Part shown: piece by piece, positions 32,598-58,813 of the stretch | Layout: each line of letters opens with the position of its first letter | Position numbering within the stretch: the stretch's first letter is position 1 | Assembly (NCBI GenBank): GCA_947034885.2 | Contig: OX344749.2 | Span: 41,507,682-41,571,681, forward strand | Origin: Thuidium tamariscinum | Lineage: Eukaryota; Streptophyta; Bryopsida; Hypnales; Thuidiaceae | Length of the DNA: 64,000 bases | Direction: 5' to 3' | The notes under the pieces: generated by a model | What the model saw: only the letters and a program-made list of their open reading frames with translations | Databases searched by the model: none | Told to the model about the DNA's origin: nothing | Position numbers and translations under genes: made by a program

Positions 32598-33476
32598 TTG
32601 CAATGAGATTCAAGAATTGTTAGAAGATTGCTAGGCACTTGAGAATTTCAAGAATATGGCCCTAATCTTGGCATCTCTATGTTGTGTAGTGTTGATGGAC
32701 ATGGACACTACAATATGGAGTCAGCTCCTGTTGGAAAAGGTGGGACATGTGTTGTCTTTCTTACTCATTAGAGCCCGTTTGGGGTCATTGGAAGGCCTTT
32801 GAGGGGCAGCAGCTTCCGGAGGAAAGGACGGTGCCACCTCTGGTGGCCAACGTGGTACCAATGGTGCCATGCTACCCACTCACGGAGGAATTTCGGGGGG
32901 TGCGGCCAATGAGGCCACAATCGAGTCTGGATGCGTACAATTTGCGGTTTAGGGAGTACTATTATTTTATGTAGTTGACAATGGCCTTTTGCTTGAGTTC
33001 CTTGTACGCATGCTGCCAGGATAAACCTTTTTAAATAGAATATTTTCAATATAATAAGCCTTGTACCGCAAACTTGGCTGCACAGATGGAAACCTATTTG
33101 AGCGGGAACATTGCCAGCAAGGCGCCACATGAAATACAGGGACTGGGCTTTGGGTATACCACTTTTCTAACAAGCAATTGAGGCAAATTTTGTTACCCTA
33201 GTACATAAAGAGAAACTGAGAAAGAAGTAAGTAAAACATTTTGACACAACAATTTTTACCTCAAAACCTCTTATACTGAAAGGTGCAATGCACATGAATA
33301 CACAAAATTTGTTGCCTACAAAAACTATACTACCTGTCAAAATAACAAACACCTCCTGAAATCCTGAATGTCTACACTACACCTGTAGCAGCTGAATGCT
33401 TTGAACAAAAAAATAGGCATCACATAGAGTCACCGCTTCTCAAGAGTGCACATCGTTTAAAATTGCCCTGCACCGT

Positions 33477-35377
33477 CTAAATGGTTGCTGCCGCCGCCGC
33501 GTCCCCGCTGCTTGCTAATGTTGCTGTCAGCCCTTCTACAGTGCCTGCCTTTGTTGCTGCCTCCTCGTCCACACAGCTTGACTTCGGTGCTTCCGCAACT
33601 TCTGCAGAGACCACAACTAATACTTTTTTCGAGTCCGCATATGTTGCTGCCACAACTTCCTTCGAAACTACATCACTCTCATGTTCCAAGTCGGTGACAC
33701 TGACACGGGGATCCAAGGCAGTACATTTTCACAGTGACACTGTCCATGGTTCACTTTCCTCCGATCCTGCACCATACGCTCGATTCTCATCCAATTTCAC
33801 ATGACTGGCTTGTTGATCGATTGAAGGCTGCCCGACTAAAGCTGCTCTACTTGCCCTCATCGCCTCCGAGGTTTTGGCAAAACCCCACTGCTCCATCCAC
33901 GCCCCGCTTGGCGGTGTGGCACACTTTGGGCAAGAAGGAGGTTTTGAAAGAGCAGTCCTGAACATGCAATGGGGGTGGAATAAGCATCCACAGCTGAATG
34001 GTGCAAGTGCTTGGGCAATAAAGAACTTGCTGCAACTCACACACGGCTCAGATGTGCGGAGAAGATCTATACTGGTGGACATCGAGGGAAGAAGCTCAAA
34101 GAAAGCTTGCGGTCGTATGGAGCTGTTCTGAACCTTGAGATTGTCAATCGCCAAGCTCAGCGCAAGACATTCAGCTTTAGCGTCATTAATCTTCTGCTGG
34201 ACAGAAATTGCTTCAGTCTTTGTTGAAGTGACGGCAGCTTCAGCAGCTTCCAGAGAAGTAGTGGCGGCGTTTGCTTCTTGAGTTTTAGCTCTAACAGCGG
34301 CATTCAGTCGGACCCGTTCTGACAAGTCATGCTCTACTTGCTTTGACTGCTTCCGCAACTCTGCTTGCTCGTCCCAAAGTGCACTCTCTGCTTCAGCAAG
34401 CCTACTACACCTCGAGAGCGCATCATCCACCGCCGCTGTTAATGTTTTCTCCAGTTGCTGCCAGCGAGTAAGTTTGCCATCCACAATGTCATGCTTCTCA
34501 ATGAGTCCTTGTATTTCGGAGACATGGCGTGCAAGTGCAGCAGGTTTTTCAACTGTAGGCTTCTTTGCGGCGCAGGACTGTCTGACTTCGACGGAGGTGA
34601 CCGCTTACGCTTCAGATCTGCGACAACTGTGGGCCCCTGTGCAGGTGCGGGAAGCCTAGTTGCCAGAGGACGCGGGTTGAGAACAGGATGATGTGCAACT
34701 GGCACAACTTCCTTTGAACCTCCACTGCGATGCCCAGGTTCATCTAAATATAGCGCAAAGACATTTAGCATTGCCTGAATTTGCTCCCGCACGCATGGAG
34801 GGGTGAGCTTCATGGGGTTCTTACCAGGGGAAATTGCTCGTGCCTTTGCTAGGGATGCAGCTTTATCCGCCCATTTCACATTCTTGTTCTTCTGATAGTA
34901 CAGGGCAAGTCCGCGGATGAAACTGGTCCCAAATTCGCCGTTGTCAGGGTGAGTCCCACCATAAACTTGCTGGTACATGTGCAATGCATCTCGGGCGGTA
35001 GCTTTGTCTGCAATCAGCTTCAGAGGGTGTCGATTTCCCTTCTTGCTAAGCGGATATGTGCCCACCAAGTCGTCCAACGGGAATAGATTGTCATCCGACA
35101 ACTTCTGAAACGGCAGTCCCTCATTGCAGAGCCCACTAGTGTATTGGAAGAATGAAGGTGGGTACCTAGCGTGATCACTCCCTAGAAGAAACGGAGCTCG
35201 CTTGATTAGCTCCAACGACATGGCTTGGGGGAGCTTCCCAAGTTCAAAGGCTTGGGACCATATTGAAATAAAATGCGCCTCCGAATCGCTTGGAGCTTCA
35301 TCCAAGCTCGCTTCATCCTCTACCTCCCTGGAATCTTCACTCGAAGAGGAACACTCCACTCTCTAACGATGAGCCAT
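33477..35377 (-). pseudogene. P1: unknown-family protein with coiled coil and variant RING finger
   Basis: Two segments on the minus strand join in frame, 35377-34609 and 34552-33477, through an apparent 56-base GT-AG intron. The N-terminal domain (~170 aa) has RAPFLLGSDHARY, GLCNEG, VYGGTHPDNGE, VKWADKAA and NPMKLTPPCVREQ, all echoed in P4. A long Ala/Glu/Lys coiled coil follows, then a RING-like finger near 34000-33880: C-x2-C-x13-C-x-C-x2-H-x2-C-x11-C-x2-C, followed by GAWMEQWG. The fourth ligand is Cys where RING-H2 has His. An in-frame TAG lies four codons after the first ATG (35363-35365) and a TGA at 33729-33731 precedes an 80-codon open tail. It is probably inactive, unless translation starts at an inner Met. 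A ubiquitin-ligase role is possible from the finger alone but unproven. Confidence 0.7.
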
Positions 35378-35614
35378 GCTGTCCACTAATCAATCAAAAA
35401 TCAGCAATCGATTAAACTGCAAGCACAAAAGATTGAACAATTTGGCAAGTATCTATTTTGATAGCAAGAGAAATTTCAATGTGGTATTCTAAGTTTTCAA
35501 TTACAGTGTTGATAGAAGTACCTGTAATCGGTAGAGACAGAAGCAAGGCGGCGGGAGATTTGCGACGACCAAGTCCGCTCCTACCTTGTCAAAAAAATGT
35601 GGTTTCTAATTTGC

Positions 35615-35920
35615 GTCTTCCCTCTCAAACTAGTGACTCTCTGTACCCAACACGCACAATTTAGAAACCAAAAAAAACAGCAAGTACGTGCTGCACCTTA
35701 TAGGAAGCAGGAGTTGCCAGCGAGCAGAGATTGGCGACGAACAAGTGTGCTGCGGTGTAAACGGCAAGGACGACATCTGCAAATTTGCTGCTCAAACATG
35801 CATCTTCCCTCTCAAGGTGATAACTCTCTCTACCCCAACGCGCTCAATGCAACAACACAAAAAGAACATCAAGTACGTGCTGCAGCTTACAGCAAGCAGG
35901 AGCTACCAGGAAGCAGGAAA
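35615..35920. repeat. Two-unit diverged direct repeat upstream of P1
   Basis: Unit 1 (about 35622-35730) and unit 2 (about 35802-35920) share CTTCCCTCTCAA, CTCTCTGTACCC-like and AAGTACGTGCTGCA blocks. The plus-strand frame reads QVRAA-x-Y-x-KQELP-x-SR in both units. It lies in the 5' flank of P1, between the divergent P1 and P2 genes. Confidence 0.65.
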
Positions 35921-36868
35921 TACAAACCCAAATCGTGCATTGAGGCGGCAATGTGACATTAATGGTCTCATTAAGGGTGAAAAAAAAATGATCACAATCA
36001 TGAAGATTACGTGTTAATTTCTAGCCACCTGGCCTCAGGATGTCCAATCAGTCATCTCCCCCTGTAACTCTCATTAATTTGTGGCCTATCATATCCAAAT
36101 GAAAACATTTGACACTCCACCCTGAAGTTACCCATTATATCATTGCCCTCAAGCTGCAACATGAAGATTGTGGCATCCTTAGGTAGAACTGTCCAGAATG
36201 TGTAGAATGAGGAGTGTGGCCTCTCACCATTGCTGAAATTTTTAGTGTTTCATATAATATTCATGTCAATGAAGCTCAATTGCTATGCTGTTGAGAAAAG
36301 AAAAATTACTTCGTTTGGTTAATTAAAGTACTGATTGGGATTAGTGAATTCCAATTTCATGTTTAGGCTATTAATGATTCAATTCAGTTTCCTATAGAAT
36401 TTTTTTTGTATACAAATTTCTTGGTAAAGAAAATTAGTTCTCATTAATTTTTTAATTTCAATTTTTTTTAAAACTACTATTTCAAAATAAAGATCTTGCT
36501 TAACATGAAAGAATCACTCTAATTTAATTTAATCTTTTTTAATGATTTATTATTATTATTTTTTTGACACTTGACTCCATATGGAGTAATGGTTGCACAC
36601 CTCGATTGGACGCGTAGGGTCCGTCTGCTTCATCAATTTAGGCTGCTTTGGCTGGCCGACATATGGAGTACAATTGCCATGTTCTAGCAGAATTGTGTGC
36701 CACACCAGGCCTATACTCTTGCACTTCATGGTTACAATTGGTCGCTCTCTGCTTTCACTCTCTTGCTTGTTGGTTCCACTCTTTTTCTTGCTGGGGTTAC
36801 TCTCTCAAAGATTGTAGGATCACACACATACACATAGTCATTTCCTGCTTTTCTGCAATACAACATCA

Positions 36869-38314
36869 ATGGCTGCGGAACAGAAAAGAAAGAGACAGTG
36901 TAGCGCTTACAAGAGAAAGCTCAGACGTTCCACCCAAGAGTGCAACAGTGAGGATATTTCTGAAGCATACTCCGACATTGACAGGTCAGAAGCGCCGAAC
37001 GTTCAGACTTCTGAAATGGATGTTGAATTCACAGAGCCGATGGCGCTTGAGGGAATTCCGGAAGACCTCAAAGAACAAATGTATGCGGCAGCACCTGTAC
37101 TGGGTGGCAGATTGGGAGCCTACACTAAGGAATTCTTTGTCAAAATAGCTGGACTTTGTGGAGAAGGAGTGACACTGAATGAAGTGCTCAGCCAAACGAC
37201 AGTTACTGATGCCAAAATTATGGCATTCTGGAAGCCAAGTAAACAGAACAATCGATTTGAAATGGCGAAATGTAGGGATCCTGTGTTGGCAGAGAAATTC
37301 GCGCAGCACCACCTGCGCGTATATGGCGCGCGACCTGACAATCTATATTTCTCTCTGAGATTCCTACGTGGTTGTTTTGCAACTTTCTTTCACGGCTGTC
37401 AAGTTGATTGGGCTGCTGAAGCATTGTTGCGCCGCAAGCAGAGGGTGAAACGCGGGATCAGGAACCCCAACAAGTTGAAACCGATAGCCCTGCGACAGCA
37501 ACTGGTAGCTCTCTATCGCATAATTGCCACCTACAATGCAAAGGCTGACTTGCCAGAGGCGAGTCACAGACTTCAGGCGGAAGCATCGACCTCAAATGTA
37601 AACCAGATCCGTGAGGGCAGTTTGGTATTGCGTCCGCAGTCCATATTGAGGTACCCTGTGGGCTTCAGCTTGCCACCCATAAACAGCACGCACGTTGCCC
37701 CCTACTGCCCCTGTTGTCCACATTTGGGATTTGTTGCAGCCGCCTATATCATCGCTTCATGTGGGTGTCTGTTTCACCCACATTGCATTGCTATTTTGTT
37801 CCAAACTGCACCTGTGACATGCCCCCGTTGTAGAGTGAAATTCCATGGAGCATGGGTGGCACAATTTGGTGGTCCATTAATAGAAGAGATGGAGAAACAA
37901 GTTAGTAGCATAAATCTGGAGCTCTCAGCATTGGTGCTTCCTGGCATCGGAACTACTTCTAGACAAGGTAATTTGTAACTCTACATTCCTTGCCATTATG
38001 TCATTTTACCTTTTACAATTACCAGTTAGATGTTTGGCTTCTTTTCTTCTCATTGGATGATTATTGGTGTTGCTGAAGAGCAACCAGTGACATTCTCAGA
38101 CGATGCGGGAGTGCTGCATCAGTCTTGTACATCGGGAGGCATTCATGAAGATTTCACGCCAGTGTCGGCGGAAGCACAATGTCCGCCCTCCCAGAACCTA
38201 CCACAGCTGGAGCACGGAGGACAAGAAGCTCAAACACCAACCGTGCCGACTATGGCTGTTGTTGAACAAGGGTCACCTCCGTCCCAAGTTGACAGAGCTA
38301 CTTCACCCCTTTAG
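36869..38314 (+). CDS. P2: unknown-family protein with variant RING finger
   Basis: A 369-codon open frame starts at ATG 36869. An apparent intron (37968-38078) would join exon 1 in frame to a Pro/Gln-rich tail ending at TAG 38312-38314. That same frame then stays open to 38656, with a short coiled segment (TREMQIEILEFAREL). The family domain spans residues ~60-220 (APVLGGRLGAYTKEFF, GLCGEG, VYGARPDN, VDWAAEAL, NPNKLKPIALRQQ) and is closest to P3. The finger at ~280-321 is C-x2-C-x14-C-x-C-x2-H-x2-C-x11-C-x2-C, followed by GAWVAQFG. There is no long coiled coil between domain and finger, unlike P1 and P4. A basic Lys/Arg stretch near residues 5-20 could act as a nuclear signal. This is the best preserved of the four copies. 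Function is unknown. Confidence 0.7.
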
Positions 38315-39569
38315 AGGTACATGTGTCTTAACAACATATGTTGCTGCAATGTAATGCCAGGGATGAGCACAGCTGAAGCACTGCCTCAATTTGTCCAGCA
38401 AAATGCAGCTGCTGATCCACTCCCACCCACAAATGTAAATCCTTGTCCACCACAAGTGTCAAGTGGAGAAGGCCAGCAGCCTCTATCCCCACCCCCAAAT
38501 GTAGGTGTTACCTTAAGGGAATCAAGCTCCGCTATCCCTACTTCAACATCGATGCTAGATACTTTGGACAAACTCAGTGCGAACACCCGTGAGATGCAAA
38601 TTGAGATCTTGGAATTTGCTCGTGAACTCAATTCCTCTGAAGTCAGTCTGTATTAGGTTCTATATGTAGTACTTATCAACTTAGTAAATCTTCCGAATGT
38701 CTATATACACAGACGGTTTGTGACTGTGGTATCTATTTTGAATCTTTTGAACAACATTGTGCTCATATGACAATATATGTTTGAGATTACTATGGCATTT
38801 TGTTTTTAAAGTACAAAATCTTATAAATTACAATTTTACAAAGTACTACGTATGGTATTTTGTAAATTACTACCTTGACCAGTTCACTGTTTAAATTTGT
38901 ATATTGGTTGTACAAGTTCGTTTGGATATGTTCTGGGGTACAAGAAGGCATAGGGCTCAGTATTCCAACCTACCAAGGCTTTGATTGTTTACAAAAGGCA
39001 TGCGGCAGCACCTTGCAGTGCACCTAAATTCACTCAGCTTTGACAACATTCATGTACATTTCATCAAGAAGAAAGTTGAAAAGACTTGATCAAACCTGGA
39101 ATAAGGCACTCAAACAGAACCGAGAATATACATACCGTTCTTGCTGACGCACAAGACTATTAACCTTAAACCTTCATGTTTGCCAACCCTTCTATCAGGA
39201 TTTAGCTACAGCAAGGACATATTGCTTGCAAGTCATGTTTCTGGACCTTCGATCAGTCGCTTTTGCTTTCAATCTATAATTCACAGATACTGATGCTTAC
39301 AATTCATATGTACTTCAATATTTGTGCATACAAGTCCGAAAAAATGACAAGCACCTACAAACGACACATTATTCGATTTGTTCAAAAGCAGGACAGCTTT
39401 AATAGAAATATCGGACAAATGTCCAGTGTTCAAACTCAAAATTGTACGATGTGGCTATATTTCAATGCAAGACCGGATCTCGTCTACACTCTAGTCTGCT
39501 GCTGCACTGCTGCGAGTCTAAGTAAGGCCTACATTTGGTAAAGAACTCCTGCCAAAAACACAGAGCTTG

Positions 39570-40916
39570 CTAACATGCGACCATCCTAAAATGTCCACCT
39601 GCAGGGAGCACTTGCTGTATTTCTGTAGTTTTCTCACTCCTTCCATTCACCTGCCAAAAACACAATGAATTGAATCAATACTTACTTATACAAATAATTC
39701 AGAGCAAGTGTGCACAGGCTGCTCAAGCAGGCCTTCTTGTATAAATGGCTACCAAACGTACCTTAAAACTTGGCAAACCAGGGCGTTCAACCACCAAGTC
39801 ATATTCATCTGGAATGAGATCCTTCGACATGATGATGGCAATTTCTTTACGGATGTGTGCCACAGGCCACTCCTTGCCAACCTCAAATGAGGGCAATATC
39901 TCATCGCCAAAACGGACAACCATAACAACCATATCATTTACCGTCTCTTAATCCACTGGTAGCCATGTCTGGTTTGGACCAGTTCTCCACCTTACATACT
40001 GAAAATTAGCATAGAGCACCTGGCACGCAAGATGGTATCGAAACTTGATGGTTGCTTCGGTCACAACGCACTTCATGATGTCTTGGCCCACGGAATACTT
40101 CACATTCCAGCCCGGATCCATAAGGCTACTCAAAAGTTCGGCTGTGACATTCTCAAACACGTACATTGTTGCAGTGCGTCTTGCGATAGCAGCCGCAACA
40201 ACAAAAAAATCGACCATCACGTGCATTGGTAAGAACCACTGGATGTGTGCAACTTTACTACCCGTGGATGGTTTCATTGCGGCCGCAAAGTCCTGAGCTA
40301 CCTTGGTTCTAAACGCTTCGCTACTATGCATATCTGGAAGCGGCCACTCGGGGCTAGTCAATTCTGGGATAGGAATTGGCTCCAAGTGTCCGAACAGCTC
40401 TACACCAGACGGAGGTACGTAAACGGCTCTTAAATAGAAAGTTCCGTTGTTCAGCAGTTCACGGTAGGACCGACCATTTCTCATAGCCTCTCCAGGGGTG
40501 TAATGCAGTACCAAAATGATATCCAACATGGATGTTGGGTGCACCCAGTCCTCCCAGAACGACGAATACAAATAGTTGGCCTTCCGTGGTTCATTTTTAG
40601 CTACGGGATCCAAGTGTAGCTGACAGCGCAGATAGGCATGACGGGCTAGAATTGCCTCCAACTTCGGTGCTCGGCGGCTCCCTGCAGCTTCTACACTCCA
40701 TCGAAATCCTTTGATTTGTGCCTTCCATGCTCCGGCATTAGAGTCCTCACCGTAATTTCGAGCATCTCTAGCCCAAGCCCCGCGCCTTCCAGGCTGCAAG
40801 GTAACCCATGAATCAAACTCAAGCCTCATGGGAATCCAATTTCCTCTCACGTCTTGATTATTGTAAACTACAACGCTCGACACTTCAGGCTTTGGTGCAC
40901 GAGGTTGCGACATCAT
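39570..40916 (-). pseudogene. U: unknown two-part protein with a ubiquitin-fold-like C-terminus, one internal TAA
   Basis: Two exons on the minus strand, 40916-39762 and 39650-39570, join in phase 0 through a GT-AG intron. An in-frame TAA at 39948-39950 separates a ~320-aa N-terminal part (Trp-rich, e.g. WVTLQPGRRGAWARD) from a ~90-aa C-terminal part. The latter runs VVMVVRFGDEILPSFEV, then WPVAHIRKEI, then the last-exon end LPAGGHFRMVAC. Alternating hydrophobic strands, a central helix and strands again suggest a beta-grasp (ubiquitin-like) shape; this is inference from pattern only. I recognise no family for the N-terminal part. Splicing and frame are kept across the TAA, so the stop looks recent (CAA to TAA would need one change). 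Confidence 0.6.
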
Positions 40917-43506
40917 GACACGCTTAAGGTCCAAGAACAGACACTGCCGCTAAAGCATTAACTCATTGCAACATATGAAACTACAGATGACGCGAGTTGT
41001 TGACTGCGATGTCATTCCCATGCCAGGCGCGCGTGGCAAACCCGCCAGCAACGCTTGCTGGTTCTCAGTCTCCCACCAATTTGGACAGCGTACTTTACAT
41101 GTCATTCTCTGGGTGGTCATAACATGATTTGCAAAGCGTACAATACATACAATATTGTTTGTGGGTGAATATAAAAAGAGCTTCTGTGCTGTTAAGGTAT
41201 GTGAAGGTCTGCCAAAGCGATGCAATGCTGGAGGGGCCGAGATGAACATTGCTAAAGCACACACTCACTCACTTTGGGATTTATGCTGTAGCTGCCGATC
41301 CAGGAGCAGTTTGCACTTGGCCCAAAACCCAACAATTTGAACATTTCACATTCTAGAATCTCTGTATTTGCCTTTCCTCACTTTTTCTAAGAGAGTGCAA
41401 ACAACAAAACTCAGGCTTTACAATCTAATCAACATACACCATATCGAGTATTTCCATAGAGAAACAAACGCACTGTGTTTTTAATGGAGGGGGGGGTTCA
41501 TGATTCTTTGATTAACTTTTATTTGGCACTCTAGATCTATCATTATGTAATTTTCTAATTTCTCTCATTGAAAAGTGGGCACACATTAATTGTAATTCCT
41601 AATTGCCATGAATATATTAAATACTAAAACGTTATCACTTTTATAACCACTATTTTTTTCGCCCTCAATTTTTTTCCCAATATTCACTACTCAGAGAATT
41701 AAACATTCCCTTACTTTTCTACTAGAGTCAAGTAGCCAAGAACTCCCTTTTTTTTTCTACTAGTCACTCCCGTGCGGAGAGTGGCTTTTTTTTTTTTTCC
41801 ACTAGTCAAAATTGTCAAATTAAAGCTTTAGTATATCAATCTTAACCTTGTAATAAATACGTTGAATATAGAGTACATAAAGTAAATAGAAGTAGGATCT
41901 GAAGTTATATTAAAAAAGAAAAGAAAAGAAAGGAGTGAATTCAACCTCAACAAAATTAGAAATCCAACTAAAGTACAAGTATCTATTTATGTGTCCCCTT
42001 ACCATAGCTCTATATTATTGTATGTTATTGTATGTTATCATATGTCATTATAAAGCATAGGTGGAGCTCAATCAGTTAGCTTTACAAATTATATGTAAGT
42101 TTCAATATAATGTAATTTGCACAAGAAAATATGTATTGTCTATCATTGCAAAGAATCTCTTTAAGTATTCATATTTAAGTATTGGTTAGTCATTAAAAAA
42201 ATCAATTGAATATGTGTCAATTTTGAGTAAAAGATTTTGTATATGGCCATGTTATTGACTCCTCTAGATTGAATTCTGGATACTATTTTAGCCTAGGCAA
42301 CGTCCCATCTCATGGCATGCAAAGAAAAAATTCATTGTAGTATTGTTGTCCATTGAAGGTGAATACATTGCAATTGCAACAACAAATAAAAAACTAATTT
42401 GGATTCAATATTTACTTGCTAAAATTGGCTATCAAGTTTCAAGTGCTACAACTTTATATTGTGATAACTAATCCTACAACCAACTTTACTAGAAACTCAA
42501 GATTCTACGATTGCTCCAAATGCATTGAATTATGATAAAAGTTCTTATATGTAGAAAGAATTCAAAATGAAGAAATTAAACTAAACCTATGTTCACTCCT
42601 ATAAAAAAAATGTAGGTTGAAATTTTAACCAAGGCTTTATCTTGAGTCAAATATAGCACTTGTGATTCATCTATAGGACTTACTATCTAGTTTGTGATTC
42701 ATGGATTCCCATTCTAATTCTTAGCTAAAGTTGGTATTTTGATGTACTCAAACTAATTTTGGCATCATCAATCATGAAATTATTAAACCATTTAGTTGAA
42801 GGGGAAACGATGTAGTTTGTATAAAATTTTATCTAGTCAATCTTGCGTCTTAATTTAATAAGAGAGTAGTGTTGCAACCTATAGGATTATGTAATATCAC
42901 ATCTTTTAAATTTAGGGTTTTTAAAAATAGTTCAACTTCCGCAACTATATGGATTGTAATTTTTTCATTATTATTATTAATTTACTATTTATATACATAT
43001 CAAGTATTTCTTGTTTATACTTTTGCACATTAAAAATGCATTTTTTAGTGTTGATTGTTCTATTTTAATCATGAAAGCAATATCTACCAAATCTAGAGGT
43101 TCTTTAAGTGAATTTTTTATGAAATTTTTATATATAGATTTGTACTTTAGAACAGGTATTCTAACATCTAGTATGAGTGTGCATTTGTATTTCAAAATAG
43201 GTGTTCTAAAAACTGCAAATTTAGTGATGGAATATTGTCAATTTAACAAAATTGACGTTTTATCTAAAGTAGAATAAGGAATAGTGTGAAATGTTCTCAA
43301 GGAATTTTTGTCTAATTATAAAGGGAATATAACAATATTCGTTTGTCATTTCTTTCAATTTTAGTGAATTTTGTTTCAAGAGTCTAATAGAAAGTTTTCA
43401 ATTGACCATTAGAATATGTTATTTAATTATCTCTATTATTTATCTCTAACTTTAGATGTCTAATGAAGAAATTTATTCAAATGAAAAAAAATTTTAAAAA
43501 AAAAAA

Positions 43507-43614
43507 TATATATATATATGTATATATATATGTATATATATATGTATATATATATATGTATATATATATGTATATATATATGTATATATATATGTATATA
43601 TATATGTATATATA
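43507..43614. repeat. TATATATG microsatellite
   Basis: About a dozen near-perfect TATATATG-type units in a row. Confidence 0.95.
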
Positions 43615-44166: not shown

Positions 44167-45145
44167 AATTCATTAGATTTTTATAATTGAGTTTTCAATA
44201 TGATTTGTTATCCAAGTTCAACATTGTTTTTGAGGCTCATTTTGGAAAAAAAAACAATACCAAAGAAATCAAGATTTGCAGTGGACATCCATGATTGTAC
44301 AAAATCTTCAATTGATAAATCTTGACTTCTTAAATGGGGAATATTCAAAAAATGTAAACTACTCAAATTAATATCAAGATAAGGTTTTATTCAACTTCAA
44401 AGTATTGTTGGCACCAAAATTTGGTGCCGTGGGCATTTATGGGTTAAGAATTGAAGAAGGAAGTATTAATGAAAAACAAAGCCTAATTAGATTTTCTCGA
44501 AGAAAAAAAAAAAAATTTCAGTGGATATTGAGTTTTTTTTTTCTTTGGGTGCTTTTTGAGGGAATAAATTGTTCTAGGACTTTAGGTGTTCTATAGAAAA
44601 TAACGGCACAAAAACCGTCATCCCAAAAACCCCTTACAAAGCCATGACCTTACCAAAAAAATGTGGTATTAACTTGAGCTTAGCTAGACTATTAAATAGA
44701 TTTGACAAGTTGGGTTAAGGAGATTAAGTTTTTGCTTGAGCACAATCAGGTCCTCGGATTTGTAAGGACCCTGAACTGACAAAAATCTCGATTACTGAGC
44801 ACTGAAATCTGTACGAGATTAGACGGTTTAGTTCAAGTTAATTATGCTCAGTTCTCTCACTCGTTCCAATCACATGCAAAAACACACTAATTCATTGAAG
44901 TCCGTGCGAAATTTGACAGCTTGGTCTATCAGTCAGCAACTCAGCATAATCAGTCGTGGTAAATGGCTGCTTCTTCCTCAATGAAGAAGTAGCCAGTGTG
45001 ATAAGCAGCGTCACACAAGCCGTGCTCCAACAAATAGCATTAGAAGAATTTGCCTCAAGCTCGTGGTAAATGTTAGTGAGTTTCCTTCAAATCCATCTGT
45101 GAGTGCTTGTGCTTGTGGTATTGTTCTAGAAAGGCTGAGATCGCA

Positions 45146-46618
45146 ATGACGAAGATGAAAGAGGGCGGCGGTGAAGGGAGGAGCCCACCGGCTGTGAAGC
45201 AGTCGCCAGCGAAGAGAGTGCGTCGAAAAATTACAGACTCCACCGATGATGTTGAAAGCGGCCCCGCCCTCGAGTCCACCGAGGAGGTGCATGGAGAATT
45301 TACGGAAGCCATTGATCTCACCGGCATTTCCGAAGAACTCCAGCAGAAAATGTGTGCAGTGGCCCCTGTTCTATGTGGTCATGCTGCTGTCTACAGCAAG
45401 GAATTCTTCTGCGATGTGGTAGGACTTTGCGGGAAAGGAATTTCGCTGAAGGAGGTGCAGATGAAGGAGAGTGACATTTTGGTGAAGTGGCCTGTGAAGA
45501 ACTCCCGTTACGAAATTGCAGATTGTCTGGACCGCGATGAAGTTGAAAAGTTCGGCAACCATTGGCACAAAGTGTATGGGGAGAGTCCAGACAACTCTTA
45601 CTATTCCATGCGGTTCTTGCGCAGGTGCTATGCTACTTTTGTGCACAATGTTGATGTGAACTGGGCTGAAGAAGCACTGGAAAGGCGCCACACGAGGGAA
45701 GGCAAACGAGAACGTAACCCCAAGAAGTTGGGGCCCGTGGCCTTGCGACAGCAAGTAGTAGCCCTCTGCAAGATCATTGCAGACCTTGAAGCATCCCCAA
45801 TCCATGGTACAACAAGTTTGGCGGCAGCAAAGGCTAGGTTAGAGCATTGCAAACAGGATGAAGTGAATGCCAACAATTGCAAGCTCAGTCTGCTGGAGAA
45901 GTTACACGATGCAAAAGAGGGCTTGCAAGGGTGCTATGCTACTGAAGATTCCGATGAACTGAACATCTGCTACACCTAGATTGTTGCGGAAGCAAAACGT
46001 CTAAGGAGCACGGGGAATGTGAAGGACGCATCGGCAAAGAGAGTGGAAGGTGAGTCTTTGCTTGCTACTATGAACGAGAGAAGTAATAAATTGAGAGAAT
46101 TTGAGGATGCCGTTGTGGACATCGAGGAAGAATTGTTGCCCAAAGCAATGGCGGAGTTAAAAAGCGTAGAGGAGTCTGTGGCGAAAGCTGAGGAGAAGGT
46201 GAAGGAACTCACAATTTGTCCAGGTATTTTCTAAAAGCTTTAGGGTGTCCATTTCAGGAGTTGCTTCCACTTGAATGATGTAGAATGATGTTAAACGATG
46301 TTGTATTTTGTCTTGGAAAATCACAACTTTGCTTATGATTTAGGTTGCCGGGACAGTATGAAAAGGCTCGAGGACCTGGCAGATGGTGACCCTGCAGAGG
46401 CCCCAAATCGTGGACCACATGACAACCCGGAAAGTACACTGAGTGTTGTAGCAAAGAATGCCATGGTAGGTCCACCGAATGCTGCAGCAGATAACCTTGA
46501 CCTTAACGCAGGTTCACGGAATTCCACAGTAGATGAGGGCCATGAACCGGTCGCCAAAGACGGCACTGTAGACCACCCAGTGGTAGGAGATGATTTCTGT
46601 AGCTGTAAACACAAATAG
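45146..46618 (+). pseudogene. P3: P-family protein, closest to P2, no RING finger
   Basis: The ATG at 45146 (MTKMKEGGG) opens a frame with the family domain: APVLCGHAAVYSKEFF, GLCGKG, VYGESPDNSY, VNWAEEALERR, NPKKLGPVALRQQ. It stops at TAG 45977-45979 (ICYT-stop-IVAEAK). The same frame then runs on as a Glu/Lys coiled coil to a donor at 46223. A second exon at 46344-46618 joins in frame and ends GDDFCSCKHK. A CPGCRDS sequence at the splice is the only finger-like trace. One TAG therefore breaks an otherwise intact ~490-codon gene. If the stop is real, a 277-aa protein with only the N-terminal domain results. Confidence 0.68.
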
Positions 46619-48144: not shown

Positions 48145-49484
48145 ATGGCGCGTAACGGCAAGACAATGGGGGTGCTTCATGAGTCTAGTGTTGAGGTCTC
48201 CACTGGTTTTGGTAGAACTGCGGACTCTTGCGGCAGCGGTGACCAAGATGAGCTGACACCAACCAACCTCACCGTCTGGAGGGAACCTTTTAGCATCAGA
48301 AGCTTCCTACCACAGATACGCAAAGAAATGATGCGGCGTGCGCCAGTTCTGATGGGAAGTGAGCAGGCACAGTATACCTGCTCGTTTTTTGCAGATGTAG
48401 GAGGCCTCTGCAACGAAGGAATTCCATTTAAAAAGTTGAAAAACGACCACGGTATCACCGTCGAGGAGCTCTCCCGCAAATATCCGCTGAATCGCAAGAA
48501 GAACCGATACCCGATCAGACTTATCACTACTAGAAAATGGTGTCCAAATCAACAAAAACTTAACACTTTTTTGTTGATTTGTGTACTCCAATGTCCATAT
48601 GCACATTTAGTTGTGAACTCTGGACGCTTACGCTCCATTCACTGGAGCTGCGGCGCCGTGGGGAACGGGGAACTCCCGAAGATGGACGCCCGTCGGCCTG
48701 TTTGTTTTAGGCGTTGCGAAGCGAAGAGCACCCCGGTGCTGTGTAGATTGTTGCATTGGATGTTAGACCAAGCGCACTTGATACTGGCAAGCAATTGCCG
48801 GTGATTCGGGGACGTTGGGAGGCTCCGTCTTGAAGAAGTCGGCGTTTGGTGTTCCAGGTAAGGAGAATTGGAGATGGGGCTTCAACTTTGCTGGAATGGG
48901 AATTCCGTGTTGGATGGGGCGAAATTGTAGTTCCGGTTGAGAGCGACGCAGAGCAGCAGCAACTTGGAACGTAGTGTGTCAATGTGTTGGACTGCGTGAT
49001 TGCACGAGAATGTCATTGGTCCTCTGCAACAAATTTTATCTAGGGTTTGGGCATATTGTGTTAGGGTTTGTTTTTCTTTTGGCATGGCCCCAATGAGCGA
49101 TGGGGATCCTCTCGCATTGGTTAGCCTCTGGTGGGAATTCATGACGCTCTCAATTAGCTAGCTAATTCTCATATTTTTCAAACAATTCATGGAGTCTTTC
49201 GGGTCCCATACTTTGCAAGCCTCTCTTGTGGGAATGAATGATTCTCTCAATCAGCTAATTCTCATACTGCTTCGAATTTATTCAGTTCTTAGGAATCGAC
49301 TAGCATTAGGCAAAATTCACGTGGAAAGCTATATCTCTGAATTACTGAGTTCTCATACTTTCTGAAAATTCATTCCGTCTTTTGCTTCCTGATTTTCGTG
49401 AAGGACTTCTTCTGGGACGTAGATGTGAATGATTCTCTTCGATCGGAGGCTGATCTTGGAGCTGAATTGTAGGGTTTGGGGGCT

Positions 49485-50647
49485 ATGGCGGGGGCTTCAA
49501 CTCTGTTTGATGCAGCTCTCCCTATTGCGCGCGCCCCACCAGCCTTTTCTCCATGGAATCGATGCAGTATGCCCTGGCACAGCGGTACGTATGCGGCGGG
49601 GGAAGAGGTACCGGGGGGAAGGGAGACAGTATTCGGGGGGCATGTGGCGTGGATGTGGGTGTAGGTTAAGTTATCTTAGGTCTTCATTCCTAACCCACAA
49701 TCAGAATATGAATGAGTGTCAACGTGGTTTATAGCAATGGAATTCCATTTCATTTGTTTTGAAAAAAAAAGAATGAGTCGGTGGATACGGGTGGAGCCTC
49801 CAAGTACATGTTTCACTGAGCTCAATTTACTCAATACTGTGCGCACCCACATGAACGAAATAGTAATGTGGCGCCGGTGACTGCATGTTGTCGATCTGTG
49901 TAGGTTGTCGGTGCATTGGTGCTTAGCATTCTTCTTCTTGCCAAGCTGCTCACAAGCAACAAATACAAGAATTTAAACTTACCTCCAGGCCCTCGGGGTC
50001 TCCCGCTCATCGGCTCCTTGCACTTGTTGGGCAAATTCCCACAGCGAGATTTGGCCAAACTGGCGGAGACTTACGGGCCGCTGATGTCCGTATGGTTGGG
50101 GCCAAGGCTCGTTGTGGTGGCGACCTCCCCGGCGGTAGCGGAGGAGATTCTCAAGACTCAAGGCGCCAATTTCGCGGACCGAATCCCAACTTCTTATTCC
50201 AAAGTGGTTCTTCCTGGAGGTACTCGATCAGTTGCCACTCTTCTTGCTCCCCTCGCTTGCGAATCAAATAGAATTCAAATGCTTGGAATGAATGAATGTT
50301 TGAAGATGTGGAATGGAATGTAAAAGTAGACTCTCATTATGAAAAGTACTTAACATACAGGTTTGCAAAATTACTTGCTTCGTCTTGCTCAATGGGTGAT
50401 TGTCATTTGTATATATGCACTAAGTTTGGTTGAGGATATGGAGGTGTTTCTACAGGAGGTGGTTCTATGCAGAGGGCCTTCGGAATCCAAGGGAACGGTC
50501 ATGTGATGGCATTGAGGCCTGGTAATGTCTAGGTGTTTTTACAAAATAATTTCAACAGATTGCGAACTCTATGAACCACTCAATTCATTGAAAATGTAAT
50601 TTCCAGGAGTAACTGATCCTGTAGTATTCGATTTATCAATGTTGTAA
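49485..50647 (+). CDS. Possible small captured gene inside the CACTA element
   Basis: Exons 49485-49584, 50456-50521 and 50607-50647 join in frame with GT-AG introns into 68 codons (start MAGASTLFDAALP, end VVFDLSML). The P450 exon lies within the first intron and does not fit this frame. I recognise no family. The consistent phases argue for a captured transcript piece; the short length argues for caution. Confidence 0.35.
49904..50219 (+). pseudogene. Cytochrome P450 N-terminal exon fragment
   Basis: A single exon between a tgtgtag acceptor and a GGAG/gtactc donor encodes ~105 aa. It has a hydrophobic membrane anchor (LVLSILLLAKLL), the proline-rich hinge LPPGPRGLPLIGSLHLLG, then YGPLMSVWLG and FADRIPTSYSKVVLPG. 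This is the N-terminus of a plant CYP71-clan (A-type) P450. The I-helix, ExxR and heme-binding Cys regions are absent downstream, so no enzyme can result. It lies inside the CACTA element and was presumably copied from a host gene. Confidence 0.85.
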
Positions 50648-51923
50648 CCTCGTGCAGTTGCTGTAGCTTTTGTTGCGAACTGGGAATTTAGAACTGGTCG
50701 AATTTATATGAAATGACGTATGTTCAGTATTTTGGCGTGGCCATGGGCAAGGTCAGCTTCAATTCATTTGTAATGACGATGTATTTTGTGACAAGAGTAT
50801 GCTTTTCGCAGCCTGTTGAACTGTGTCTAGTGTCTCTGTAAATTAAAAGAAGGATTTATTTTCTCACAGGAAGTTTGATTTTGGGTCATCCAATTCAGTC
50901 TATGAGACTTGTATCGGGGCCTCTTCAAACGTAACCGAAATGATTTTATGCTCTTGCTTGCTATTTGGGGTGGGGTGGGGTGGTTCACACCGACTCAGAG
51001 AGGTGACGATGACTGAGCTTGAAACTCCAAGGTGGACAAAGAGGCTCGTCGCTCAGTTTCTCTGACGCGTGACGGATGGTCGCTTCGCTTTGAAATCGAG
51101 GTTGAAAACCTACCCTGCTACAGAATCCTCTTCTTACCGTATTTGACTTCTGCTCGGAAGAAGTGCCGACGTGGTTGATCGTCTTTTAGAAGATTGGAGA
51201 TCACTGCGCTTGGCCTTGGATTTCTCGTATTGGTAATCGCTTAAGGTTTGTTTGATTGGTATGGTCTTTTTGATGCGTTTTTTTTCTTTATAGCTACAAG
51301 AGTGGCTGGAGGGTTTTACTGAGCTTTTGAAGGAGCGCACGAACGAGGTCGCCGTTGAGGTGCATCGCCTGGAGTCAGAAGATACCGTAGATCTGATTCT
51401 TGCATACACCTGTAACCATCTGTTAGCCTCTTAGATTGTTTCAATGCTTTCAGCAGCCACCATCTGGTTGTTGCTAGACGTTACTAAAGGTTACTTGTTC
51501 TGTTGATATCCTCAAACACAAGGTCAATTCTGCAATATTCTGCTTGCTCTTCTGGTCCTATGCACTAACATCATTCTGCTCGTTTTGAAGATCATCAAAG
51601 CATTTAATTTGTACAGGGAGAAGACAGGCACGAAGAAATACTTCTGGGTAAGAAATATTTTTTCTTGGTACTGGACATCAGTTGAGGTTAAGCAAATTTA
51701 ACCAGTCAAGAACGTCTTTGTAATCCATGGACTGCGCAATACGTCTCATGTAGAACATAGTATTTTGAATTATCTGTAAATTTTAACAAGTTTTTTCATT
51801 GTGTTATCCATTTGTTGACATGGATTGGTCTCCTTGAACTTCAAGGATGTTACTGGGACCATGATTATGACATTCGTTGGAGACATCTACTAGTGTTTAA
51901 CTAGAAAGTATGGTTGTTTGTGA

Positions 51924-51998
51924 TACAGGTTATGGTTATATGGTTATACTACATCCAAAATACAGGTTATTGATATATGGTTATACTACATCCAAAAT
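51924..51998. repeat. Two-unit tandem repeat (37-38 bp units)
   Basis: TACAGGTTAT...CATCCAAAAT occurs twice back to back with small changes, inside the CACTA element. Confidence 0.85.
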
Positions 51999-54225
51999 GT
52001 TTTCCAGCGCAAGACTGCTTTGAAGGCTCCTGATGGGATAGATGTTACTGGGATAGTGGATAACTTGCTTGTGGATTTATTGACAACACTCAATGTTTTG
52101 TAGCTAGCCTTCTTCAGGTATTATATGATATGACACCATATTCCTATGATATGACAAACATATATAATTTGCTACACTGTATTCAAATTTGTAAGTTGCA
52201 AGAAGTTGTTATGTGAATGGGCATCCAAATCAACATTTTTATGTCAATCATCAACACAAACGTGTCAAATTGGACAAAAAAATGAACACTTTTATGTTCA
52301 CAGAGAACAAAAAAGTGTCAATTTGATTGTCCAAATCAACACTTTTTTGTTCATCTTTGTCCAAATCAACACGTCCTAATTAACAAAAAAAAATCAACAC
52401 TTTCTTGTAATTTTGGACGCTGAATTTTCTACTAGTGTATGGAGGACGTCGTCAGCGTCTGGAACGTGCAGCGTATGCATCAGAAGGTGTATGGCGGATT
52501 CGGTCCAGATAATGGCGAGTACGGGACGGCTTTTGTCCGTGGAGTGGAGCTAGAGTTTAGGCACAAGACGAAGGTCAATTGGGCCGAAGGGGCCGCAGAG
52601 CTCGCATCGCAACGCATGAAAAATTCAGGGCAGAATCCACAGAAGATGACACCACCATGCATACGCCAGCAGATTCAAGGGCTAGTAGACCTTTTTGAGC
52701 ATCTCATTGGTCGTGCGCTGAGGGCCCATGCAGCGGCTGTCGCACAATTGCGGGATGCGAAGCTAAATGTGCGCCAAGAAGCACTAATTGATCGGGAGTT
52801 TAGAGGAGTTCTTAGTTCCGAGCATTTTTTGATGCAAGGATCGAGCACAGTCACGAAATTGTTAGCTCCAGCGATGGTCGACGTTCCGCTGCAGCAGATT
52901 ACAACGCCGTGGCAAGCCAGGTCTATGAAAGCAAAAGCAACAGGTCAGCAGAGGGAGGTGTCCAAGGTAGCAAGCCGGCCTGCTACGCAAGAAAACTGCA
53001 GTCGAGTTGGAGCATAGCAAGGTTATCGTTGCCTTGGAGCACACACAGGTGGACTTGAAAGACAAGCAAGAGCGGAGGCACGAACTTCAGAAAGCAGAGG
53101 AGGCACTTTGGGACAAGTTTGCAGTGCTCCAATCCGCGAAGAAGGAAGGTTGTTGTGATGCTGCCGCAAGAACTATGCTAGACAGTAAGGTGCGTGCTGT
53201 GATGACAGCGTGCGGGAAGGCCAGCGAAGCTGTTGAGAAGAACCAGGCGGCATTGATAGAGAAGACTGAGGAAGTGTAGATGCTGCATCAGAAGGTCAAT
53301 ACTTTGCAATCTAAGATTTAGGTCCTAGATGGACAAGTCGATATCATCATCATTGAGGAGAGCTTCGTTCGCCTGCAGCAATTCCTCTCGTCGTTCCCCA
53401 CTGTACCAACCTCCATGACCCCGCTGAAAGAAGAACTCTCGTGTGGTCTATGCGGACGTTTTTGGGCAGAGATGGCGTTGGAAAATCTCCCTTGTGGCTG
53501 CTTGTTTCACCCATGTTGTATGTTTAGAATTGTACTCGGGAAGAATCCACGTTGTCCCAGTTGTGATCACGTTCTAGGAGGCGTTTGGATGGGGCAGTGG
53601 GGCCTAGTCACAAATAATGCGACTATGTAGGCTAGTGTTGAAGCTTATCGTGCAGCTATAGAAGCAAAAGGATGTGCACCTCCACTCTCGCGGGAGGACG
53701 CACAAGCAAGAATTCAAGAAATTGCCATACAAAGTGACGCAGGAACCGTTGAGACAGGATGGTCCATGCGAAAGCGCACTGCGGAAGACAGTGAGTGCGA
53801 ACGAGGAGGTGGCCCTGCCAAGCTTGCGCACGTCAATGAGAACACAATTCCCACAGGAAAGGAGACTCAGTATACAGGTGTGCACGACGAACTTGACATG
53901 GAGCTCATGCAGATCGTGAAAGAGGCGGCCGCAGAGGTCGAGAAGCGGGAGGCAGGTGAGGAGTGTGAGCATGATTCCTACAAGTCTGCCGAAGTAACTA
54001 AGATAGTGGCAGACTTTGCTGACGCATGTAATATTAACGCCACTAATGCTGTTGCAAGCATTGCACGCGAGGGTGGCCACGAGCAGGAGTAGAATAACGA
54101 GCAACAGGAGATTATCTATGTATCCCAAGTCGTCGTGGATTTGTGGTTTGATAGGGTGTTTTTGAGCCGTGTCATTGAATTTCACAAGCGTAGATGCTAT
54201 ATAATTGTGGCAGAGCAACAATAGT

Positions 54226-55044
54226 CAGAGGTGACACATACCATATTCTAGTTATACACCTACGGCATATATTCCAGTGCTTGGTTTTTCAATCCACCAG
54301 AGCTATATACTATGGCTACAGGTTGGAACAATGAGTACCATGAATTTGTGATTTCCTCTTTGGGGATGAAGTAAAGTTCTTATTTCACAGGCTTCTACTA
54401 ATATTATTAGTTAATCCGATTCTTGCTTAGGTTTGTTATAATTGTGTGATGGAATGTAATGTATAGTGGTATGTTTAATCGTGTGGTACAATGCGGCAGC
54501 ACGTTTGCCCTTCATAAAGTGTTACATATGGCTTCCAGCGTTAGGTCACCCTTGAGTCGTTGGCCAGTGGACCAAGTCGATTAGCTTCAGCATGTGACCA
54601 AATCTATTCAACTATCTTTATCTGTGCGTGAACTTGTGAAAGTGTACCACATGCACGTAGAAAGGATGTGCGTTTCAATTATAGACTGAATTGTACAAAT
54701 TACATGTCTAATTTAACATTGGAGACCAGCATGGCTACATGGCAGCCATATCAGGGACTCGTGCTTAAGCACGTCTACTTCAATTCAGCCTGTGTCACCT
54801 TAAAGAAAACCTATGTGATATCTATGAAAGAATAATCCGATTGAGTAGAGTCTTGTGTGCCCAGTGGACATTGTGTCGTCAACGTTGGCTCCTCGTCGCC
54901 GTGCTGGCTGCTGCTTGAACACGGTTCATTATCTTCGTTCACCGAGTCTTGTTGTTGTGTGACGTATCGCCTACCTTCTCATATACGCCCTGCTCGCCAT
55001 GCCTCACAAGCAGCAGCTGCGTTGGAACCGTGCCAGGCTTCCCG
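54226..55044. other. DNA between convergent P4 and transposase-like genes
   Basis: No gene is seen. It holds the 3' ends of both genes; no clear polyadenylation motif stands out. Confidence 0.5.
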
Positions 55045-58000
55045 TCACCGTGATCCCGCCACCAATACCTCTGGATCGGGAAGGTCACGCTCTGCATCCA
55101 CAATTCTCTTCTTCAACTTTGCGGCATATCGATGCTGGATGTTACGATACCAGAATTCAAACTGTTGCACAACCACACTTATGCAGTCCTTTGTCCCTCC
55201 GTGCTGAGAGTGGGCCTGACTCGATGACTTTGCAACATGATGGGATTTCTCCATACCCTGGCAGCTCCATATGGACAAGCTTCCATACTTTTCAACGAAC
55301 CACGGCCCGTGCTTTATGAAAGCATGCTGCAGCAAGACACATCATGCTTCAACATCGTTGAAGATAAACAACAAAGCCAAAACTAAGCAAATTAAATCAT
55401 CGCATTTATTGCGTGTGGAGTAATTAAGCTAGTGAAATCCAATGACCAAGAAAAGCTAAAACTTACAATGTAGTGGGTGACATGACCCTCTCCGAATGCA
55501 GCGACGAATGCTACCCCGAAAGCATCCATGCGAACTCTACAGTGGCGTCTTTGGTCTGCTGACAGAAATAGACCAGTGAAGTATGGCACCAGCTCCTCCA
55601 GTGTCTCCTACACCCGTTGCCGCTTTATCTTTGCCTGCCCATTCTCGAGGTTGTTCATCTCAGACATGCACACCTCCTTCCACACTCTTGTATGAGTTGA
55701 CCAAGAACTGGGACGAAATAGCTTTATGGCCACTCCCACCGCGCAGGCTTGGTTTCATAACAACGTTACCTGACTTGCCCGACTTCTTGACATCCTGCTT
55801 CAGCACACAATTCCCTGATTCAACTCCAATAGCGGACAGCGTTTTCTCCATGAAGTCTATCGCTTCCTCCTTCCTAGCGTTATCTTGCATGTTCCAAATG
55901 AACATGAAGTGCATGTGGAGAATTTTCTCACAAATGCGGACTAGTGCATGGAGAGTGCACATATGTGTCCGTGACAGGGGAATAGGCAACACCTGTTTCC
56001 ATCGTGGATGCGTGGTTGCATTCACTGGTTCTGCTCGAATCCTGGACGCAAACAAGCCACCCTGCCACTCGCCCTTCCCTCTCGTCATGGCAATGTGTTC
56101 CGCATCCGCACTAGTGATTGTTTTTGCTCTCTTGTGCTTCTGCTCACAGTAGATGCAATTCATTTTACAAGAGGGACCCTGTTGAAGTCCATTCATACAC
56201 TTAATAGTTTTCATGTCTGCACTCATGTGCCACTCGATGCTGAAGCTGCCACGACCCGGTACCTCCAACTGTTGCCCTTCGTTCTGAGCCTTAACGACCT
56301 CAGGAAATTTTGTCTGCTCAAATACCCAATTCAGAATTTTGTAAGACTCCTTGCCCACCTGGAAGCAGCCTATAGGCCAAATTTCTTGTTCAGATTGCAC
56401 TGAAAAGTATCGTTCATCATTCCGCTGAATCTCTAGATCCAACGCACGATTCATCAACGTTAAACTCACTCGTTCAAACTTTTTCTCCCGCAAAACCTCC
56501 GCTTCGTCCAATTTTAGTACAAAGACAAGCGGTCTGCCGTTGCATTCTGCACATAGAAGTTTTATGTTAAGAAACACCTCTTACCTATAAGAGTCTACGA
56601 TAGGTTGAAGAACTACTAGAGCGATCAGTCTAAGGATGAGATCCCCAGTGACTTAAGGTGTGCTTCAGCAGTCTGTAAACTAGGTACATGCTGCCAATTA
56701 AGTCGCTCTTGAACTTCTGTTTGGAATATAATGAAAACCATTCTCTCATGCATACTTAAAGGTCCACCCAATCACCCTATGTTGTATGCATTACTGCTTG
56801 TGCTTCATAAAGCCAACCAATGCTTCATCCAATTCTGATTTAATTGAAATTTATGATTTAATGTTGCCTTCCACGAATTAACTAAGTCTTGTATTTCCTA
56901 GCCAAGCACGTAAACGAGTTGAGATCAGAAATGATACCTTCAATGGTCATATCGTAGAACAAAACCATGGAACGCTGGACAACTTCGAGCTGAGCAAAAA
57001 GATTATTTTTGCTATCAAGAATGACTTCTTTTGCCCCTCTACTAATCTTCCTCCCAACTTTGACTTCAGGAATTATTCGACGACCTTCAATGTGGTAATA
57101 GTCTCCTAGAAATTGAGGAAGTTTCTCGTTCATCTGCTTGCGCAACTGCGCCAAACGATTCCTTGATGGCAGAAGGCCCCCCTTCAATTCCGGAGCCACC
57201 AATTGAACCCGATGCTTCACTGCATTGCACATTGCCACATACCCTCTACTGCTCACCCCGGATGCATCACAAGTCTCCAACATCACCTCTTCCGTTAACG
57301 TTTTCTGTATTTTTTTGAACATGCCCACTGCGGCCGCAGTGGTCGCCTGGCTCAGTCTTGGTTGTTCAGCAAGCCTGCGAGCCTCACCAGCAAACAATAG
57401 ACATGCTAGAACAGCAGCCGTTTTGTTGTGCGCTGTTCCTTCACCCCCCAACCTCTTCTTCCTCCCTCCCCGCCGGTTGAACTTCTGCACGCATTGCACT
57501 GTCGACGGTTGAATTTGCCATCTCAAGGCGGTTCTCCTTCGCTTTGCATGGCTAGAGCCAGGTGCAAGCTCATCGAGGCTTTTCATTTTCCGAACTCGTT
57601 CTCTGTAGCCCAAAGGCGTTTCCACCATTTTCTTCATCCTCTCCTGCAGCTTCTCGTAGGCCTCTCTGATTCTTGTCAATTCAACCTCGAGTGCGCCAAA
57701 GTGCTCCTCGCGTTCCTCGGATTGAGCCCTTGCCATGTCATTATTCGCCACAAGCTCCCTCAACCCGACGCATTTTATCTCCAAAGCCAACACGTTAGCC
57801 TCTAACTGAACCCGCGCGTCTCTGTGTTGTGCTTCAGCATCCGCCCAGCTACCCATTCTGACAAGCAATTCATCACACTGCGCCCGTAGCTGCACAATGC
57901 AACTCTCTTGACTGGAAACTTTCGATTGAAGTCGTCTCACAGAATCCTCCATTCGCTCTCTGCTATGCTGCCCAATGCTTCCATCAAAATTAACGTAGGA

Positions 58001-58303
58001 AGAACTCAACCTCTTTGTGTACCCAAGCATACCATTCTCTCCCTCACAAAGATACTCTATGTACTGCTTTGTGGTCCGAAAGCATGGTGGTGTCGCAGTT
58101 GCAGGGTCCAAAGGATATATTCTACCATCAGTCCAGAGATCGATATTTGTTTCGCTGGCCGCACGCCTCTGCGCAAAACTGTCAGAACTAGGCTGATCTT
58201 TCAATTTCTGTCCTCTCCGAATTAGAGGAGCATACTTCGGATGCAGCTGAATTTGGGGCACATAATAGCTGCCCAAAGTATTAGTCACGTCCCTCAACGC
58301 CAT
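55045..58303 (-). CDS. Transposase-like protein, intact (887 aa)
   Basis: Four exons on the minus strand join in frame: 58303-56938, 56546-55672, 55607-55467, 55326-55045. The exon 2 donor (GGT/GTG) is weak; the others are good. Residues ~115-228 form a coiled coil, followed by a basic stretch (~253-285). Then come SGVSSRGYVAM and LLPSRNRLAQLRK (~348-388), and HMSADMKT with a C-x3-C-x2-C knuckle (CKMNCIYC, ~562-589). A His-rich LHALVRICEKILH helix (~655) and a C-terminal WSCQGMEKSHH...HGGTKD segment complete it. This order (acidic D-M/F-K, then a Cys knuckle, then an LH helix, then an E-K-x-H block) is what I recall from transposase-like proteins repeated in many animal and algal genomes; I cannot name the superfamily with certainty. 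There is no in-frame stop, unlike its neighbours. It starts ~480 bp inside the right inverted repeat. Confidence 0.65.
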
Positions 58304-58813
58304 GCTGTCGCATGTGGCTCCTTAACTGTAGCACTGTCGTTCCCGGGTACTATCTCAAAAGAAGTCCACGCTGCGCTTGCCCAAAATTCATACACGAGCG
58401 CTCCCGCCAGAAGATGACTGTGTTGGCCCTCTGACTTTTGAATTGGCGCTAAATTCATTGTGCGTTGGCAGCTGACTATGAGATTGACGCTAATCGGAAA
58501 TGAATTTTTTAACAGAAGAAATTGCATATTATAATCTTCGAAACCAATAGTTTAACAATTGCGAGAGTACCGCTAGTCCTCCCTTGCGGCCAATTCACTC
58601 AGTGAAAGAACTCGATGTGACTGCAATTTTGGCAGCATGTGTGCCACATATGCAGCACTCCCGGGTGTGGCTTAATACCAGAAGCACGGGGATATGGACG
58701 CATGAGTGGGTGCCCACCCCAGATGTACACTTGCCCGCTCGAAAATTCCATATATTCACCTTGCCCGAAGGTGCTCTACAAGGCCTTCCAATGACCCGAA
58801 AAGGTTTCTAATG

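Follow-up and report, generated by a model that had tools for sequence, protein, structure and literature searches.

In a 64,000-nucleotide stretch of the genome of the moss Thuidium tamariscinum (contig OX344749.2, positions 41,507,682–41,571,681; hereafter the window), a 26,048-bp block at 32766–58813 is very probably one copy of a giant DNA transposon that carries, besides a transposase-like gene (T) and a second gene (U), a family of genes (P) as accessory genes of its own. The block, copy E1, is bounded by 34-nt inverted ends (32766–32799, forward strand, and 58780–58813, reverse strand) that match at 30 of 34 positions and lie 25,980 nt apart; about 8e-5 such pairs are expected by chance in a 64-kb window. 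The left terminal inverted repeat (TIR) begins CATTAGAG and the right one, read inward, CATTAGAA. A first-pass annotation had reported these ends and suggested a giant element with P as accessory genes. Both claims hold: the pair of ends recurs in other copies, and three of these combine it with T, U and P, as E1 does.

We searched the genome (363 Mb in 19 contigs; the window is part of contig C1) with each E1 end and obtained 8 and 7 matches, whose pairing defines the copies. Paired ends delimit E2 (C7:4286621–4355979, 69.4 kb), E5 (on C3, 26,909 bp) and E6 (C10:23071052–23099566, 28,515 bp). The left repeat recurs in copies on C7, C3, C10 and C1, the right one likewise in other copies, and E2, E5 and E6 each combine the ends with T, U and P, the combination that the first-pass annotation had proposed to look for. 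Two short copies, E3 and E4 (525 and 728 bp), are internally deleted and have the same ends, as does a further decayed copy of ~1 kb. Ends without genes, which had been named as evidence against an element, thus do occur, but short deletion derivatives of this kind are normal for DNA transposons and do not refute the element.

The long copies are related over their length and sit at different sites. E5 and E6 are 96.5–97.7% identical over 22.8 kb (of 26.9), in the same order and with insertions in either. No match is seen between their 1.5-kb flanks, or between the flanks of E1 and E2; four other pairs of flanks have repeats in common. E2 matches the left 10 kb of E1 at 97.7% identity in one alignment (32766–42727, the end of the E2 piece compared), which runs into the start of the AT-rich stretch at 41–45 kb, so that this stretch does not divide the element as had been feared; the right 6.4 kb match at 97%. 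About 47 kb of extra sequence in E2 (C7:4293282–4346001) lies between P3 (match at C7:4342604) and P4 and probably represents nested insertions. Element borders are sharp against unrelated flanks, and the termini read CATTAGA or close to it. In all 26 aligned elements (from 30 T loci, chosen for a clear border or a terminus match) the T-side end begins CAT, followed by T in 23 and by A or C in the rest.

Insertion leaves no target-site duplication. None was found in the 13 insertions for which both flanks were compared. L033 has TA on both sides of the element, which is also present in its empty site; L026 has AACAT on both sides, one base off the junction, where the left side of its empty sites has AACGT instead. 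A TA or CATTAATG duplication hidden within the conserved ends was considered and rejected, as the empty sites lack these bases. To find empty sites, 120 bases from each flank were joined and matched against our sequences and the genome; eight of the 13 joined-flank queries gave a match spanning the junction. For E1, E6, L027, L033, L030, L040 and L031, a match crosses the junction without a gap there (some of these matches carry gaps farther out), and in the best match of each of the eight elements no base is gained or lost at the junction. The flanks of E1 thus meet exactly in a related empty site. Further genomic copies settle the empty sites of E6 and L026: among 78 matches listed in a genome search, in which scoring was limited to the top 40 of 12,727 candidates, at least 66 span the E6 junction, and at least 10 (five places, both strands, under the same limit) span that of L026. 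Four of these empty copies were read; all are 91–92% identical and ungapped at the junction. No common target sequence is visible among the junctions (CT|TT, CC|TG, TA|TA, TC|CA, CT|CG and others). The missing duplication, already noticed in the first-pass annotation, is a property of the family and not a weakness of the single-element reading. A small element at C5 was the target of the L026 insertion; it resembles the CACTATAAGAAA-ended pairs described below.

T reads inward from the right end on the minus strand (58303 to 55045). Exon 1 (56938–58303) is an open frame, with splice sites placed by comparison with the intronless relative L035. The second coding block (55467–56546) contains LK[LM]DE, HxxxDMKT and CxxC, and the last exon (55045–55326), seen in all four giants and several other members, contains H-x4-H and a conserved E (QGME). 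The first-pass annotation was right about an inward transposase-like gene and wrong that it is intact: compared with its kin, the second block is frameshifted and contains one in-frame TAG, so that the sequence does not predict an 887-aa product. In an alignment of the catalytic block from seven members chosen for long open frames, the D and E of the LK[LM]DE type, DMKT, CIYC and CTLH are all invariant. CIYC follows the second D by 20–23 residues in all seven rows, and the histidines of H-x4-H precede the E (QG[MVL]E) by 25 and 20 residues, the first being Y in L037. With D, D and C(2)C followed by H(4)H and E, T is most likely a DDE transposase. Pfam searches gave no transposase or RAG1 match for T up to E 1 (alignment A1) or E 10 (L035), and a PDB sequence search gave no match. 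We also considered a viral or prokaryotic origin and rejected it, since the catalytic block has no relative in viral contigs or prokaryote genomes.

U (39951–40916, minus strand) is the convergent partner of T; in E1 a stop precedes its C-terminal part, whereas E6 keeps that part open. The genome contains 99 matches to T exon 1, 129 to the T catalytic block and 136 to U; grouping gave at least 107 T, 100 U and 54 P loci. At 73 of the 100 U loci T is no more than 20 kb away, where random placement, computed with rounded lengths for some contigs, predicts ~1. In 71 of these 73 pairs U is downstream of T, tail to tail. Pfam and PDB sequence searches with U (alignment A3, two of the four copies; E2 and E5 were left out for stops) found no known domain. 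A likeness of the U C-terminus to ubiquitin-like folds, seen by eye, had no Pfam support and was dropped.

The window holds four P genes. P1 (33732–35362, minus strand) has an N-terminal domain, a coiled-coil-like region and a RING-like region; it forms one frame in E2 and two overlapping frames in E1, and is thus frameshifted in E1. P2 (36869–37978, plus strand) combines a P-type N-terminal domain with a RING-like cluster and is nearest to P3 within the window; no counterpart was identified in E5 or E6. The first open frame of P3 occupies 45080–45979 (plus strand) and corresponds to a 398-codon open frame in E6. P4 (48145–54092, plus strand) is a single stop-free frame of 813 codons in E6. 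The four copies of one family and the additional gene seen in the first-pass annotation thus stand as P1–P4 and U, with the amendment that P4 of E1 is split by a 3.9-kb CACTA insertion.

P is linked to T and U throughout the genome. Using two queries, with which distant P genes may be missed, we obtained 57 matches to P1 and 38 to the RING block. At 49 of 54 P loci (~0.8 expected at random), T or U is found no more than 20 kb away, as is the case for 35 of the 38 RING matches; four P loci and three RING matches have neither gene within 30 kb. P or RING-like matches far from T and U were seen at C3:11426282, C3:17855002, C3:29532339, C5:29855090 and C6:13909339; these isolated matches are either decayed copies or, possibly, genes that the host has adopted. 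Pfam and PDB searches with P returned no family match, and the best PDB RING matches, BRE1 and AMFR chains, are at chance level (E 0.18–0.9). Going by the coiled coil and the RING-like cluster, our best guess is that P may be a ubiquitin-ligase-like factor that counters host silencing or helps to maintain the element.

A tree of T was built from the 30 loci with sequence (of 86 exon-1 loci) and rooted at the midpoint, with a long-branch warning. In a clade of 17, U lies 2–6 kb from T in 15 members and 11 and 23 kb away in two, and the single P match is 67 kb distant. In the clade of the giants (11 rows), seven have P matches and an eighth, L022, has a RING match (C3:35133722); P matches also accompany both L040 and L043. 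Subject to that rooting and those long branches, P was likely gained once.

Comparison of diverged copies shows that T, U and P are under purifying selection. Between E1 and E5/E6, the ratio of nonsynonymous to synonymous divergence (dN/dS) is 0.07–0.25 for the T blocks, 0.14–0.15 for P1a, 0.52–0.56 for P1b, 0.20–0.24 for P3 (with dS near or at saturation) and 0.15–0.25 for the parts of P4; for U it is 0.13 between E1 and E5, dS being saturated against E6. Ratios in the young pair E1/E2 are higher (0.20–0.75, a mismatched P3 alignment left out), as expected of decaying copies. Synonymous divergence between E1 and E5/E6 is uneven from gene to gene (T ~0.2–0.7, P4 0.45–0.52, P1b 0.55, P1a ~1, U and P3 at least 2), which suggests that the elements are mosaics with parts exchanged between them; the order of U and P1 also differs between E1 and E5. 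In E6, the frames of P4 (813 codons), P3 and U are open, P1 has a stop and T has ten. Open frames beside a T with ten stops may be due either to chance, to selection after insertion or to gene conversion.

These observations fit a model in which T would bind the ~34-bp CATTAGA ends and cut the element out. The duplication that DDE transposases generally leave is understood to result from staggered joining of the two strands. Here T would join both 3′ ends to the same target base pair, and such a zero-base stagger would leave no duplication. U, nearly always found tail to tail with T, is most likely a second protein of the transposition machinery, and P would comprise accessory genes kept by the larger lineages.

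Several observations weigh against this account. No Pfam family or PDB sequence matches T, so that its motif order is what marks it as a DDE enzyme, and the RING matches in P are all below Pfam cut-offs. T is damaged in all four giant copies (in the first two blocks, six stops in E2, ten in E6, two and a frameshift in E5), so that their movement either lies in the past or takes place solely in trans. E2 was read outside its middle 30 kb. Among the empty sites, that of E1 (C1:41647848 region, L015) is a distant match at 74% identity, that of L031 is short (~50 bases), and several come from nearby copies of the repeat that the element entered. Gaps occur at or near the junction in E6 versus L054 and in L026 versus L022, and five of the 13 insertions (E2, E3, E4, E5 and L043) have no spanning empty site.

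Other explanations account for parts of the data. The first-pass annotation had allowed for two related elements in place of one, and the unequal divergence of the genes from E5/E6 and the changed order of U and P1 would suit two smaller elements lying side by side, or ends paired by chance. However, both ends recur with T, U and P in four long copies (the window and three other sites), E5 and E6 keep one order through 22.8 kb, and the flanks of E1 and E6 join exactly in empty sites; this alternative is not needed, is largely refuted and is in our view very improbable. That the duplication is absent because excised linear elements were captured by end joining into breaks agrees with junctions that have no visible target sequence in common. 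Yet end joining usually loses or adds bases, none of which is seen at the junction in the best match of any of the eight elements, and we consider repair-mediated capture quite unlikely. P might also consist of passenger host genes captured by chance, with no role for the element: a few P loci and RING matches do stand apart from T and U, and the function of P is known only as a guess. Such chance capture is hard to reconcile with the presence of P in the clade of the giants and with L040 and L043 while none is closer than 67 kb in the 17 rows of the other clade, with purifying selection on P between diverged elements, or with the 813-codon P4 and open P3 and U that E6 keeps despite ten stops in T, and is therefore unlikely. 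A single giant transposon with accessory genes of its own remains the preferred reading.

Other features lie within and around E1. The CACTA-type transposon in P4 (48525–52437, plus strand, 3.9 kb) has CACTACTAG ends, is flanked by a 3-bp TAT duplication (48522–48524 and 52438–52440) and is not part of the element proper. It carries a P450 gene fragment (49904–50323, Pfam E 7e-13), so that the claim that no host gene lies between the ends needs one correction, a host-gene piece within this insertion. Inverted pairs with CACTATAAGAAA ends at 60645–60842 and 31383–32597 are apparently small CACTA-type elements. A 435-aa open frame with a GTPase domain (26511–27818; MMR_HSR1, E 1e-15) is probably a host gene outside the element, and a stretch at 4830–5381, which matches DUF4371 weakly and below the cut-off (E 2e-4), may have been left by a different DNA transposon. 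Elsewhere on C1 (38344367–38345549), broken psaA/psaB-like fragments on this nuclear contig are probably a chloroplast DNA insertion. The PsaA protein of the chloroplast contig (C19) agrees with a moss host: its top PDB matches are 6l35 and 8htu, structures from the moss Physcomitrium (1638 bits), followed by 9lut (1609 bits), and the others among the 60 matches listed score at most 1567 bits.

Giant eukaryotic transposons of tens of kilobases with several genes are described in PMC6431247. Polinton/Maverick, Teratorn, Helitron and Starship elements are likewise large and multigene; their ends differ from those found here. The T, U and P frames that were scanned gave no polymerase, helicase, herpesvirus or tyrosine-recombinase match. 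Helitrons encode a Rep-helicase protein, have no TIRs and insert between A and T, whereas our elements have TIRs, no helicase match among the scanned frames and mixed junctions. Polinton/Maverick elements encode a type B polymerase and an integrase and make a 6-bp duplication; T, U and P lack such Pfam matches, and no duplication is made here. Starships carry a tyrosine-recombinase captain gene at one end, and no recombinase match was found in T, U or P. In ProtoRAG, a DDE transposase gene stands tail to tail with a partner gene, as T does with U; that partner is RAG2-like and the duplications are 5 bp, in contrast to a U with no known domain found and to duplication-free insertion. Several extra genes in large members are unusual for cut-and-paste mobile DNA, and the recurrent P genes exemplify accessory genes that selection retains in a transposon lineage. 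The occurrence of TET/JBP genes in several lineages of fungal DNA transposons, described in PMC12730594, sets a precedent for accessory genes.

Absent duplication has its closest precedent, by analogy, in Spy of the PHIS superfamily, which according to PMC4482050 is a cut-and-paste transposon that makes no target-site duplication and inserts within AAATTT. No target consensus is visible in our family, and the T motifs, compared by eye, do not suggest a PHIS transposase. Spy was the one duplication-free DDE group in the limited literature that we covered. On CATTAGA-ended transposable elements that literature yielded nothing relevant, and neither a duplication-free CATTAGA family nor giants with P-type genes were found in it (Repbase Reports and the bulk of bioRxiv preprints and of subscription journals lay outside it). 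If our account is correct, the family would be a second such group, one with RAG-like motifs, and would make strand-transfer geometry testable. A natural transposon of more than 20 kb that inserts without a scar or visible target preference would also merit attention as a way to move large DNA in plants.

By its motifs and termini the family appears to lie near the CMCT clade, which, according to PMC12730594, comprises CACTA/EnSpm, Mirage, Chapaev, Transib/RAG1, Plavaka, ESTA and Lanisha and is characterized by C(2)C, H(3-4)H, mostly CA..TG termini and 2–5 bp duplications. T shares with these transposases the D, D, E triad and, in the interval from the second D to the E, the motifs C(2)C and H(3-4)H, and the elements share the 5′-CA..TG-3′ termini (CAT at 26 of 26 T ends); the members were compared by their described motifs, and T has no Pfam-level similarity to them. 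Duplications are 2–5 bp in the clade and 0 bp here, and because of this difference we do not file the family there. Two-gene elements occur in CACTA, and we know of no counterpart of U or P in the clade. The host is a moss, and two authors of the superfamily Lanisha reportedly work on the moss Ceratodon. That our family is Lanisha or part of it, with the giants as a lineage within it, has not far short of an even chance (Repbase Reports 2020; Maumus, McDaniel, Carey). The motifs C(2)C and H(3-4)H and the mostly CA..TG termini of the clade, to which Lanisha is assigned, speak for this; against it, 2–5 bp duplications are given for the whole clade (PMC12730594), and none is made here. With Lanisha compared by that description only, we tentatively propose, as something possible rather than probable, a new plant cut-and-paste superfamily that would be kin to CACTA, Transib and RAG1 and would be set apart by blunt joining, no visible target preference, the partner U and giants of at least 26 kb with ubiquitin-ligase-like accessory genes.

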